From Streptomyces wedmorensis (GTDB lineage Bacteria > Actinomycetota > Actinomycetes > Streptomycetales > Streptomycetaceae), in assembly GCF_000716445.1 (NCBI RefSeq), contig NZ_JNWK01000112.1:1-17591 (forward strand): a stretch of DNA of 17,591 nucleotides, written 5' to 3'. This document shows, in pieces, positions 8,527 through 14,921 of the stretch. The position numbers were made by a program, and so were the translations under genes. Numbering within the stretch: the first letter of the stretch is position 1; each line of letters starts with the position of its first letter. The notes under the pieces were generated by a model that was not told where the DNA came from, did no database searches, and saw only the letters and a program-made list of their open reading frames with translations.

Positions 8527-8599
8527 AAAGTGCACCGATCGCTTTACTTCGCGTCAGGGGCATGCTAGCTTCGTCGAAGTAAGGCGATCGCTTTACTTC
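8527..8599. promoter_or_regulatory. Paired TetR-type operators and promoter P1
   Basis: Two 24-bp palindromes are centred 49 bp apart. O1a (8527-8550) is degenerate on its left arm: AAAGTGCAC-CGATCGC-TTTACTTC. O1b (8576-8599) is GAAGTAA-G-GCGATCGC-T-TTACTTC, symmetric except for one base pair. Between them a plus-strand promoter is visible: TTTACT (8543-8548), a 17-bp spacer, TAGCTT (8566-8571, preceded by TGC). O1a covers the -35 and O1b the expected start site, so a bound repressor would block both. It points toward the truncated SnoaL copy at 8681; the broken TetR gene lies divergently. Confidence 0.8.
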
Positions 8600-8680
8600 T
8601 GTCGTGGGGCGTCGACCCCGCCGATCGCCCCACCGGCCCTCTGGGCCAGACGAATCAACATCGCCGCGAAAGAGATCAAC

Positions 8681-8866
8681 ATGTCCAATCTTGAGCAGAA
8701 CAAGAAGGTTGTCGTCGACTACTTCCAGATGGTGGTCGCCGGGGGGATCGAGAAGGCGATCGCTGACTACCTCGGCCCGGGGTACGTCCAGCACAACCCT
8801 GACATGCAGTTCGGCGACGAGGGGTTCATCGAGTTCAACCACATGAGCAGTCGTGGCCTCTCCTGA
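8681..8866 (+). pseudogene. SnoaL-like (NTF2-fold) gene fragment, copy 2
   Basis: MSNLEQNKKVVVDYF through GFIEFN repeats copy 1 at about 97% DNA identity over 159 bp (8681-8839). It then reads HMSSRGLS and stops at 8866, for 61 codons in total, about half the family length. AAAGAG precedes the ATG by about 9 nt, and promoter P1 with its paired operators lies about 100 bp upstream. The control region is therefore intact while the enzyme is not. The 47-bp repeat starts 9 bp after the family-like part. A working product is unlikely. Confidence 0.75.
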
Positions 8867-8895
8867 CCTCCACAGCGGGAGAGGTGGCGCGATGC
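8849..8895. repeat. 47-bp direct repeat, copy 2
   Basis: It matches 7739-7785 with one mismatch. Its last two bases overlap the first two of the 100-bp repeat copy B, so the junction shares the dinucleotide GC. It contains the same CCTCTCC/GGAGAGG stem (8857-8863 and 8878-8884). Confidence 0.8.
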
Positions 8896-8993
8896 GGTCA
8901 GCGCGCGCTGCGGCGCAGTCTCGTCGGGAACGGCGTTGTCGATCAGTACCCGGGCGGCCGCGACGGCGTCGTGGGCCGGCTGGTCGCTGTCGG
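8894..8993. repeat. Exact 100-bp direct repeat, copy B
   Basis: It is identical to 8038-8137. Here the right edge is joined to TetR codons reading TGVVQRYKQGF (minus strand, 9025-8994), a different part of the TetR gene from that next to copy A. Confidence 0.9.
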
Positions 8994-9025
8994 AAGCCCT
9001 GCTTGTACCGCTGGACGACGCCGGT
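8894..9025 (-). pseudogene. Second TetR fragment (rearranged)
   Basis: Read on the minus strand from 9025, TGVVQRYKQGF matches TGVVQRYKQRF of the intact TetR. It is followed out of frame by SDQPAHDAVAAARVLI from the 100-bp repeat. About 35-40 codons between these parts are missing, and the whole N-terminal half is absent. Its left neighbour is the 47-bp repeat, its right neighbour the head of a tautomerase gene on the other strand. It has no start codon and is clearly non-functional. Confidence 0.75.
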
Positions 9026-9406
9026 CCCGTGATTGACCTGTTCGTGCCGGACAGCGCCCTCGACTCCGAGGCGGAGCGGGACCTGGTCGACCGGCTCACG
9101 ACGATCATGCTGAAGGCGGAGGGAGCCTGGCAGGCCGACGAGGCCGTGCTGGCGGGCTCCTGGGTGTTCCTGCACCACGCCCACGTCACCGACCTGATCT
9201 GGAAGAACGCCCACATCGACGGCTTCCGCTACGCGCTCTTCACCCCCGAGCAGATCAACGCCGCCAACGCCACCCTGCTCGACCTCCTCGCCAAGGGCGA
9301 CCTCCACCCCCAGGACGCCCGCACCTTCCCCCTCGACCAGGCCGCCCAGGCCCAGCGCCACCTCACCGGGGACCGGCCCTTCGGCCGCGTCCTGCTCGCG
9401 ATCTGA
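9026..9406 (+). pseudogene. Chimera: tautomerase head fused to alcohol-dehydrogenase tail
   Basis: VIDLFVPDSALDSEAERDL through LAGSWVFLHHAH matches the first 50-odd residues of the intact tautomerase at 12530-12967 (MPMIDLYIPEGALSPEAERDL ... LAGSWALVHHTQ). From about 9180 the same frame becomes DLIWKNAHIDGFR, then FTPEQINAANATLLDLLAKG and GDRPFGRVLLAI. That is the typical C-terminus of a zinc-type alcohol dehydrogenase/quinone oxidoreductase. The start lies exactly at the TetR junction. The ATG is gone, and if GTG 9029 is used the catalytic N-terminal Pro is lost. The frame stays open from 8936 to 9406, so a chimeric protein might be translated, but no Shine-Dalgarno is visible and neither half is complete. 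Confidence 0.7.
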
Positions 9407-13079: not shown

Positions 13080-13153
13080 GATGTAAAGCGATCGCCTTAC
13101 ATTTAGGAAGCTAACATGGCGGGAGCGTCAAAGTACAGCGATCGCCTTACTTT
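13080..13153. promoter_or_regulatory. Paired TetR-type operators and promoter P2
   Basis: O2a (13080-13103) is GATGTAA-A-GCGATCGC-C-TTACATT. O2b (13130-13153) is AAAGTAC-A-GCGATCGC-C-TTACTTT. Their centres are 50 bp apart. A minus-strand promoter lies between: -35 GTACTT (13136-13131), a 17-bp spacer, -10 TAGCTT (13113-13108). The arrangement is that of P1 read in the opposite direction: the upstream operator covers the -35 and the downstream one the expected start. It drives the tautomerase, SnoaL-like and hydrolase 1 genes. Confidence 0.85.
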
Positions 13154-13344
13154 GTTTCCCGGTGGCAGCGCCTGGCGCCCCGGCTGCGAGCGGGGAGGCG
13201 CCGTCGGGCGGCTCGGACTGATGCGCCAAAGGGCACGAGGGGGCGGCGGGCGGCCCCGGACCCGAGGCGCCAGCGGGTGGCGAGACTTGTGGATCCGGGG
13301 CCGGGTGGCGGTGCTGTGCGCCGGCGATGACCGGGTGGAGGGTG

Positions 13345-13467
13345 TCAGCCCTGGCGGGCCTTGAAGCGTGGATCGCGCTTGTTGATCACGAACGTCCTGC
13401 CGCGGCGACGGACGATCTGCGCCCCCGGCTTGCTCTTCAGTGAGCGGAGCGAGTTGCGTACCTGCAT
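13345..13467 (-). CDS. rpmJ: 50S ribosomal protein bL36, zinc-free type (40 aa)
   Basis: A 40-residue basic protein, MQVRNSLRSLKSKPGAQ with GRTFVINKRDPRFKARQG at the end, which is the bL36 sequence. It has no cysteine, so it is the C-minus paralog that does not bind zinc and that many actinomycetes make when zinc is scarce; the main copy lies elsewhere in the ribosomal operon. The ATG at 13467 is preferred over upstream starts because it matches the family's N-terminus exactly, and AAGGACGGCAGG precedes it. It lies 121 bp downstream of hydrolase 2 on the same strand and upstream of P2. I could not see a convincing Zur box. Its presence in this cluster may be accidental. Confidence 0.9.
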   Translation of the reverse strand: MQVRNSLRSLKSKPGAQIVRRRGRTFVINKRDPRFKARQG

Positions 13468-13588
13468 GTCCTGCCGTCCTTCCCTCGGGCGGCGCGTGTT
13501 CGACGCCTGTCTGATCGGGTCATGCCAAACGGGGTTTTCCGGGTCCGTATTCCAGGGGCCGGTCGCGGCCCTGTGCACCGGTCGCGGA

Positions 13589-14692
13589 TTACAGTCCGGC
13601 GGTGAAGGTGTGGATGTCCTTCAGGGCTGCGGCATGCAGGTCCGGAAGGGCGGTGGCGAAGACGAGTTCGCCGTCGTGGCAGACGCCGTTGACCGTGCGG
13701 CTGATGACGTCGACGCCTGCGCGGGCGAGCCTGCGGGCGTAGGTCAGGCCCTCGTCGCGTACGGGGTCGATCTCGTTGGTCGAGATGACATGGGGCGGCA
13801 GTCCGGTGAGGTCCTCCTCGGTCGCGAAGTAGGGCCAGGCCAGAGGGTTTCGGGCGTTCAGCCCTTCGGGGTCGTACAGGCTCACGAGGACGCTGGTGAC
13901 GGCGGAGCTGATGAAGTGGTCGTCGTTCTCGACGAGGGACGGGAGCTCGCGCGCCTTGTCCTGCACGCTCCAGCCGTAGGCGCCGGAGATGTACGGGGCG
14001 AGCGCGTACGTCCCGTCGATGAGGTCCAGCCGCCCCTCTCGCTTGGCCTTGATCGTGACGGCCAGGGCGAGGTTCGCGCCGCCGGAGTCGCCTGCGACGG
14101 CGACCCTGGTGACGCCGAGGTCCTCGCGGTGGGCGCCGACCCATTCCAGGGCGCTGAAGCAGTCGTCGAGGCCGGCGGGGAACGGGTGGGGGCCGAGCTT
14201 GCCGGCGGCGTTGCGGAACTCGACGCCGACGACGATCACCCCTGTCGCGGCCAGCTCGTCGTACCAGCGCAGGTAGAGCGGACCGGCGGCGCTCAGCAGG
14301 GCCATGCCGCCGCCGTGCAGGAAGACGACAGCGGGCAGGGGCCCGCTCACGTCGCTCGGGCGGTGGACGTGCAGCGTGATGGGGTTGCCGTCGGCCCCGA
14401 TGGCCGTCTCGGTGGTCCGGCGCACTCCGGGGATCTCGGGCAGGCCCTCGACGAGGGCCGCGAAGAGCCCTTCGAAGCCGGTCTCCGTCTCGGCGGCGAA
14501 TGCCAGGCGGTCTTCCAGCGAGTCGTCGGGCCCGGTCGGCGGTGCGGGGACGTGCCGGTCCAAGCCGAAGGGGGTAAGCCCTTGGAGCATGCGCGGATCG
14601 GTGCGCCGGTCGCTGCGGAAGTCCGACGCGGGGTCGCCCAGGCGTCCAGGCAGGGAAATCGGGACCTCCGGGAGGCCCTGAGGGGTCGTCAT
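13589..14692 (-). CDS. HSL-type alpha/beta hydrolase 2 (367 aa)
   Basis: This hydrolase has the complete hormone-sensitive-lipase motif set: FLHGGGMAL (oxyanion hole, H126-G129), VAGDSGGAN (Ser203), NEIDPVRDEG (Asp309) and GVCHDGE (His339). It is paralogous to hydrolase 1 at 10771 over its whole length, including the N-terminal RLGDPASDFRSD cap. It keeps the standard HGGG that hydrolase 1 has changed. The ATG at 14692 is chosen because GACGAGG lies about 9 nt upstream and the sequence before it is shadow-like. It is transcribed from P3 (-10 at 14882-14877), divergent from TetR, with a leader of about 180 nt. Regulation by the adjacent TetR is strongly suggested by the paired operators. The substrate is unknown. 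Confidence 0.88.
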   Translation of the reverse strand: MTTPQGLPEVPISLPGRLGDPASDFRSDRRTDPRMLQGLTPFGLDRHVPAPPTGPDDSLEDRLAFAAETETGFEGLFAALVEGLPEIPGVRRTTETAIGADGNPITLHVHRPSDVSGPLPAVVFLHGGGMALLSAAGPLYLRWYDELAATGVIVVGVEFRNAAGKLGPHPFPAGLDDCFSALEWVGAHREDLGVTRVAVAGDSGGANLALAVTIKAKREGRLDLIDGTYALAPYISGAYGWSVQDKARELPSLVENDDHFISSAVTSVLVSLYDPEGLNARNPLAWPYFATEEDLTGLPPHVISTNEIDPVRDEGLTYARRLARAGVDVISRTVNGVCHDGELVFATALPDLHAAALKDIHTFTAGL

Positions 14693-14845
14693 CGCTGATT
14701 GCCTCGTCTGTCTCGTGAGGGGCGAGAGCGCCGGCCCGCGAAGAAGTCGGGGCTCGCGACGCGGGGGATGGGCCCGAGTCGCAGCTCGGCCGGAGCCGGC
14801 CGGACCTGGGGCGTCTGCGCGCCCGCGGGTGCCGCTCCACACCTC

Positions 14846-14921
14846 GAAGTAAAGTGATCGATGTACTTAAGGAGTGAAACTAGCACGCCCTCGCCACTAA
14901 GTAAAGTAAACGCTATACTTC
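14846..14921. promoter_or_regulatory. Paired TetR-type operators, divergent promoters P3 and PtetR
   Basis: O3a (14846-14869) reads GAAGTAA-A-GTGATCGA-T-GTACTTA and O3b (14898-14921) TAAGTAA-A-GTAAACGC-T-ATACTTC. They are degenerate relatives of the sites at P1 and P2, centred 52 bp apart. A minus-strand promoter fits between: -35 TTTACT (14905-14900), a 17-bp spacer, -10 TAGTTT (14882-14877, preceded by TGC). On the plus strand TATACT (14914-14919) is 6 nt before the TetR ATG, so tetR is probably leaderless and O3b covers its -10: autoregulation. The weaker symmetry suggests looser binding here than at P1 and P2. Confidence 0.75.

Follow-up and report, generated by a model that had tools for sequence, protein, structure and literature searches.

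Among the described systems closest to the one considered here, the tet locus of Tn10 has two operators, each bound by one repressor dimer, which overlap the promoters of the divergently oriented repressor and target genes and control both (PMC3037858 and PMC3511530, in excerpts of these accounts); the corresponding portion of PMC3037858 gives no indication of cooperativity between the two operators. In the QdoR (YxaF)/LmrA regulon of Bacillus subtilis, according to part of its published description, two QdoR operators lie at the target and a single one at the promoter of the repressor itself. NemR of Escherichia coli is described in excerpts of PMC7464077 and PMC5297802 as having two switches, one linked to Lys175 and the other to Cys21/Cys116.

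Here we consider a stretch of 17,591 nucleotides (nt) from Streptomyces wedmorensis (NZ_JNWK01000112.1; hereafter the window), which is one of the 259 contigs (C112) of the 9.38-Mb host genome and carries six 24-base-pair (bp) palindromic operator sites forming three pairs, O1 to O3, around the promoters P1 to P3 (Table 1). Its layout resembles that of Tn10 tet in that the O3 pair lies between the divergent genes 13589-14692 (-) and 14926-15561 (+) and appears to overlap their promoters, and that of the QdoR group in that pairs are predicted at P1, P2 and P3 with a site, O3b, at the tetR1 promoter. We propose that TetR1 is a local self-repressor, that the paired operators occlude enzyme promoters without forming a loop, and that a shared operator couples tetR1 to an enzyme gene, a reading to which we assign a probability of roughly 80%. 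It builds on features read from sequence, namely the sites, the promoter-like elements, their conservation, their linkage to TetR genes and the lack of a helical phase.

Six operators around three promoters

The six paired sites are real: all of them were located where the preliminary description had placed them, with centre distances within the pairs of 49, 50 and 52 bp, and the degeneracy it ascribed to O1a and the O3 pair is evident from their palindromic identities of 16 (O1a), 16 (O3a) and 14 (O3b) of 24 positions, the values for O1b, O2a and O2b being 22, 20 and 20. The full literal motif occurs once in the window (8576-8599) and in none of 200 shuffles. The core GCGATCGC is intact in three of the six sites (O1b, O2a and O2b), and with at most one mismatch it is found 26 times in the window against 23.7 expected, which is not above chance; thus, the signal resides in the flanking GTAA..TTAC arms together with the core. 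When a position weight matrix trained on two pairs was used to rank 17,568 window positions, the training sites included, both members of the left-out pair fell within the top six, whichever pair was omitted. In the host genome, an 18-bp core with at most three mismatches recovers O1b, O2a, O2b and one other place (with three mismatches), the reversed-pattern control giving one, which rules out a scattered genomic GCGATCGC repeat. O1a, O3a and O3b lie beyond this cut-off, and hence weak sites elsewhere in the genome are missed too.

The sequence also supports the earlier proposal that each pair brackets a promoter, with one site at the -35 and the other at the start site. The accompanying claim of a TAGYTT -10 with a 17-bp spacer holds for P1 and P3 and fails at P2, where the TGTACT hexamer gives 18 bp. 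P1, P2 and P3 all fail a plain sigma-70 scan of 8400-15000, the scan being of the E. coli type; its sole match was the TATACT at 14914-14919 (one found versus 0.3 expected), which lies inside O3b. At the equivalent place on the repressor side of O1a (minus strand, 8529-8534) the hexamer is TGCACT. In this single case, the degeneracy of O1a is what a decayed repressor promoter beside the broken tetR2 gene would leave, the half carrying the P1 -35 being intact.

Pairs, promoters and relatives of TetR1

TetR1 relatives were collected on the basis of protein similarity, the motif playing no part in the choice, and tblastn matches with E 1e-30 or better were kept, by which L070, all of L071-L092 and all of L103-L121 were dropped (L numbers denote loci of relatives). 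After removal of duplicates by their first 60 residues, the 97 matched loci gave 68 distinct tetR genes in 67 loci; the named close relatives are mostly from Streptomyces. Paired sites are present upstream of 57 of these 68 genes. The other 11 comprise two at contig ends (L054 and L055), L057 with two sites 63 bp apart, and eight with a single site, among which L039 and L069 lack a TAxxxT and the other six have TATACT or TATGCT. A strict pair pattern that uses no protein information found 17 distinct places in 17 of 392 Streptomyces genomes (30 rows, 13 places being found on both strands), with none for the reversed-pattern control, and every one of them adjoins a TetR1 relative (40-55% identical); the window's own pairs fail this pattern. 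The strict-pattern places are thus not scattered without relation to TetR genes, in line with the TetR-linked regulon envisaged in the preliminary description. A second pattern was applied to 19 genomes selected because their TetR1 relatives include ones with lysine before RT. It matched at 13 places in 10 of these genomes, against 0 for the control; judged by coordinates, 12 fall inside the stretches already retrieved, and the other lies about 16 kb beyond, on the same contig.

Operator core and recognition helix covary among the 66 of 91 TetRs with a called core, the 25 without one being dropped. G occupies position 1 in 24 of 32 cores belonging to TetRs with S, T or P before RT (17 TetRs) and in 0 of 72 belonging to those with K or R there (49 TetRs), and A at position 2 is seen in 13 of 14 cores for TetRs with KY instead of QH, versus 2 of 75 otherwise. 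Together with the linkage, this covariation makes TetR1 a well-supported candidate for the owner of the sites.

The geometry of the promoter is held while the distance between operators is not. Reading away from tetR, a TAxxxT lies 17 bp (44 pairs) or 18 bp (11 pairs) from an operator-borne TTTACT-like -35 in 55 of the 57 pairs, and at 16 bp in the remaining two (L048 and L058); in the opposite direction none of the 57 has a TAxxxT at 17 or 18 bp. Hence, the -35 of the divergent gene appears to lie within the upstream operator. From the target -10 to the second operator the gap is 0-12 bp in the 55 pairs, and this variable gap plus the spacer accounts for centre distances that range from 45 to 57 bp. 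The rule extends to pairs away from any detected tetR: out of 22 extra pairs, four were second copies of counted loci and four lay beside a tetR, and 13 of the 14 left keep the 17/18 spacing, L026 being the exception.

At positions 17-22, a TAxxxT is present in 40 of the 57 repressor-side operators and in none of the far operators (an earlier set of 55 pairs, three from the window and 52 others, gave 37 near and one far), and in all 40 an in-frame ATG or GTG follows 6 or 7 nt later, a nearer in-frame start being present as well in five. This is apparently the layout expected of a leaderless tetR; in Mycobacterium smegmatis, 1016 of 2139 genes (47.5%) are reported as leaderless in an excerpt of PMC5741613. 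Among the 14 pairs away from a detected tetR, only L021 has TATACT, and the bases after it look like the start of the tetR of that same locus. Thus, the repressor-side operator often holds the tetR -10, and one operator would serve two divergent promoters.

The paired layout can be read from sequence in Streptomyces, Frankia, Kribbella, Nocardia, Williamsia and mycobacterial genomes. One contig of Mycobacterium sp. URHB0044 (L062/L028/L176) has four paired sites within 46 kb, one of them preceding an F420-dependent quinone reductase, and represents a larger version of the window regulon. In L046 and L068 the tetR has a single operator of its own, and a paired promoter behind it in the same direction precedes a short-chain dehydrogenase-like frame (scanned in L068, judged by eye in L046). 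Many members of the distant L103-L121 clade, which are from Streptomyces, have a different, TTAAGTACACC- or TTATGTACACC-like palindrome upstream.

Proposed mechanism and its alternatives

We envisage that TetR1 represses its own gene locally and that each enzyme promoter under its control carries two 24-bp operators, the upstream one with the -35 and the downstream one over the start site. TetR1 dimers on both would block RNA polymerase twice by occlusion rather than through a DNA loop. Where a tetR is divergent, the upstream operator would also hold its -10 on the other strand, such that one bound dimer could shut both genes. A small inducer would then release TetR1, allowing the esterase-like, SnoaL-like and tautomerase-like proteins to be made.

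The near-five-turn spacing had initially been taken as a sign that the two operators are placed for cooperative TetR dimers or DNA looping, and the three window distances do cluster (vector length 0.74 at 10.5 bp, n=3). This idea did not survive the comparison across relatives: the spacings of the 57 pairs are not in helical phase (Rayleigh test for 10.5 bp, p 0.70), and spacing changes at least 36 times on a tree of 66 TetRs, with each spacing, as well as 'none', treated as a state. The promoter geometry, in contrast, is preserved. A fixed promoter with a drifting second operator points to simple occlusion of the -35 and start site, and a loop or phase-locked complex predicts otherwise. Further, about 50 bp is short for a DNA loop, and the Tn10 operators, in the portion of their description cited above, are likewise without sign of cooperativity. 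We hence regard looping or phase-locked cooperativity as rejected, or at best very improbable.

Marginally less probable still is that another protein owns the sites and TetR1 is a bystander. The gene for an HxlR-type regulator (15558-15944) overlaps the end of tetR1, and the former TetR2 is also conceivable, its frame still encoding most of the recognition helix (SSRTFYQ, shared with TetR1, followed by R where TetR1 has H); against both, the motif tracks TetR relatives in many genera and varies with their recognition helix, and a site at the start of tetR is where autoregulation classically acts. It is somewhat less far-fetched, if improbable, that only P3 and tetR1 are live, the sites at P1 and P2 having been left behind by the duplication of cassettes of tetR and target. 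The repeated tetR2, SnoaL-like and hydrolase pieces, the debris into which P1 reads, and the lack of a tetR adjoining O2 fit such a history; nevertheless, the P2 sites are strong palindromes (20 of 24) ahead of three intact genes, and pairs of the same geometry without a tetR occur in relatives.

Several observations weigh against TetR1 acting as a self-repressor through shared, paired operators. Half of the window sites (O1a, O3a and O3b) are weak palindromes of 14-16 out of 24, both repressor-promoter sites being among them, and with the P1 genes broken, the P1 operators may simply not have decayed yet. A TAxxxT is lacking in 17 of 57 repressor-side operators, and hence the shared-operator layout is not universal. 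The covariation of helix and operator seems to reflect few independent changes on the tree. The distant clade L103-L121 has far lower motif scores, its best sites reaching 7 to 23 bits, with none above 6 in L104. A co-directional upstream gene as the cause of single sites proved a weak explanation (7 of 9, versus 25 of 57 in the control).

Beyond the local regulon, one might imagine a class of TetR switches spread across the actinobacteria, with a single palindrome serving as operator, as enzyme -35 and as the -10 of a leaderless repressor gene. In such a class, a single binding event would couple both genes, paired copies would seed new regulon members and the invariant cysteine would sense reactive electrophiles; we consider this speculative and rather doubtful. 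If the local reading holds, a TetR group for which we found no description gains a defined operator, a predictable regulon and a common promoter layout. These loci also amount to a natural experiment on the reason for having two operators, in which the preserved promoter geometry and the drifted distance favour plain occlusion. Combining an operator, a -35 and a -10 within 24 bp, the shared element would make a compact part for controlling expression in actinobacteria.

Genes of the locus and comparison with described systems

Table 1. Operators, predicted promoter elements and genes of the regulon in the window
Feature	Positions	Strand	Description
O1a	8527-8550		At P1 -35; adjoins broken tetR2; leave-one-pair-out rank 6 of 17,568
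O1b	8576-8599		Over P1 start site; sole literal full motif; rank 1 of 17,568
O2a	13080-13103		Over P2 start site; 18-bp core match; rank 6 of 17,568
O2b	13130-13153		At P2 -35; without divergent tetR or TATACT; 18-bp core match; rank 4 of 17,568
O3a	14846-14869		At P3 start site; rank 5 of 17,568
O3b	14898-14921		Holds P3 -35 and tetR1 -10 on opposite strands; rank 6 of 17,568
P1	8543-8571	+	TTTACT (8543-8548), 17 bp, TAGCTT (8566-8571); predicted start ~8578
P2	13108-13137	-	-35 TGTACT (13137-13132), 18 bp, -10 TAGCTT (13113-13108); predicted start ~13101
P3	14877-14905	-	-35 TTTACT (14905-14900), 17 bp, -10 TAGTTT (14882-14877); predicted start ~14870
tetR1 -10	14914-14919	+	TATACT inside O3b, 6 nt before ATG at 14926; predicted leaderless mRNA
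TetR1	14926-15561	+	Presumed repressor, 211 aa; PF00440, E 6e-18
Broken tetR2	8125-8493	-	74% identical to TetR1 residues 11-133
Truncated SnoaL-like frame	8681-8866	+	Behind P1; likeness by eye to 12026-12409
Tautomerase-like protein	12530-12967	-	First gene behind P2; PF01361
SnoaL-like protein	12026-12409	-	Second gene behind P2; PF12680
Alpha/beta hydrolase (esterase-like)	10771-11862	-	Third gene behind P2; PF07859
Second alpha/beta hydrolase	13589-14692	-	Behind P3, faces tetR1; similar to 10771-11862

As previously noted, one pair stands beside an intact TetR gene (O3, tetR1) and one beside a broken one (O1, tetR2). The start codon of tetR2 (8520-8522) is in a different frame, and pieces matching the C-terminus are found at 8064-8216 and 8920-9012; the 5' part of the truncated SnoaL-like frame is a 97% repeat of 7530-7687. 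The gene that P1 now precedes is truncated and the adjacent tetR is broken, which leaves P2 and P3 as the intact regulon in the window. The surrounding 7530-9000 region is scrambled, with the SnoaL-like 5' fragment (97%), a 64-nt piece (91%) and a 100-nt piece overlapping a tetR2 C-terminal match (100%) each present twice. A chimeric frame (8936-9406, +) has a tautomerase-like start, as judged by eye, and the C-terminal end of a Zn-dehydrogenase. Between the genes of P2 and P3 lies a gene for a 40-residue ribosomal protein L36 (13348-13467, -; PF00444), whose plasmid matches are annotated as type B. The HxlR-type regulator (+), whose start overlaps the tetR1 stop, has a cysteine near its N-terminus, and HxlR relatives can be thiol sensors. 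Farther away, 2636-3370 (-) encodes a protein built of repeated TVWGVNAAGNIY-like units, presumably a tectonin-type beta-propeller.

No near-identical locus was found in the other 391 Streptomyces genomes, where the tetR side is 64-75%, the hydrolase 68-69% and L36 77-84% identical, nor at E 1e-60 in 99 other genomes; proteins 93-97% identical do exist (P0001-P0003). A plasmid origin was rejected, there being no match to the TetR protein in 72,556 plasmids at 1e-25 and only partial DNA matches in 21 records.

Sixteen target-like proteins of relatives were scanned against Pfam, having been picked from candidate frames chosen by a simple scoring rule, under which some unscanned frames look wrong. 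They include an amidase, aldo-keto reductases, a major facilitator superfamily transporter, short-chain dehydrogenases, Zn-dependent dehydrogenase/quinone-reductase-like proteins, alpha/beta hydrolases and an F420-dependent quinone reductase, and only the protein of L015 was without a match. Such enzymes would point to a role of the regulon in detoxifying reactive or aromatic compounds.

TetR1 carries a TetR/AcrR family DNA-binding domain (TetR_N, 64.7 bits, cut-off 24), and the C-terminal domains of the TetR_C_13/LmrA-YxaF (QdoR) group, PF16925 and PF21993, score 24.3 and 19.8 bits, with a cut-off of 27 for both; most of its listed relatives carry one or both. The structural model (mean predicted local distance difference test score 80.2, predicted template-modelling score 0.72) assumes a TetR fold. 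Its nearest structure is SCO4454 (PDB 3g7r, an entry whose title names no function; 27% identical in the fold alignment), NemR being among the tied next matches. The sole cysteine of TetR1, C119, is kept in 66 of 66 relatives, and the GC motif is also present in SCO4454 and SAV143. One idea is that TetR1 is a thiol sensor; cysteines of TetR proteins need not be redox switches, as described for CssR of Corynebacterium in an excerpt of PMC8176726.

Among the papers listed in literature searches, none was seen to deal with this operator, and five operator-like strings had no match in 5.39 million papers; most subscription journals, figures and alternative notations of the site fall outside this coverage. 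The placing of two operators around divergent promoters is textbook knowledge. As far as these searches go, the operator sequence, its actinobacterial spread, an operator that provides one gene with its -35 and the other with its -10, and what the spacing shows are new. Like NemR, TetR1 has an equivalent of Cys106 in C119; unlike NemR, it keeps the partner residues of neither known switch, Lys175 aligning with Thr181 and Cys21/Cys116 with Phe31/Ala129, for which reason we rejected a NemR mechanism. In contrast to QdoR, one operator appears common to both promoters, and the target enzymes differ. Relative to Tn10 tet, the operator sequence differs, the target is an esterase-like alpha/beta hydrolase (PF07859) instead of a tetracycline efflux pump, the repressor -10 lies inside the operator with a predicted leaderless mRNA, and extra paired promoters without a tetR lie nearby.

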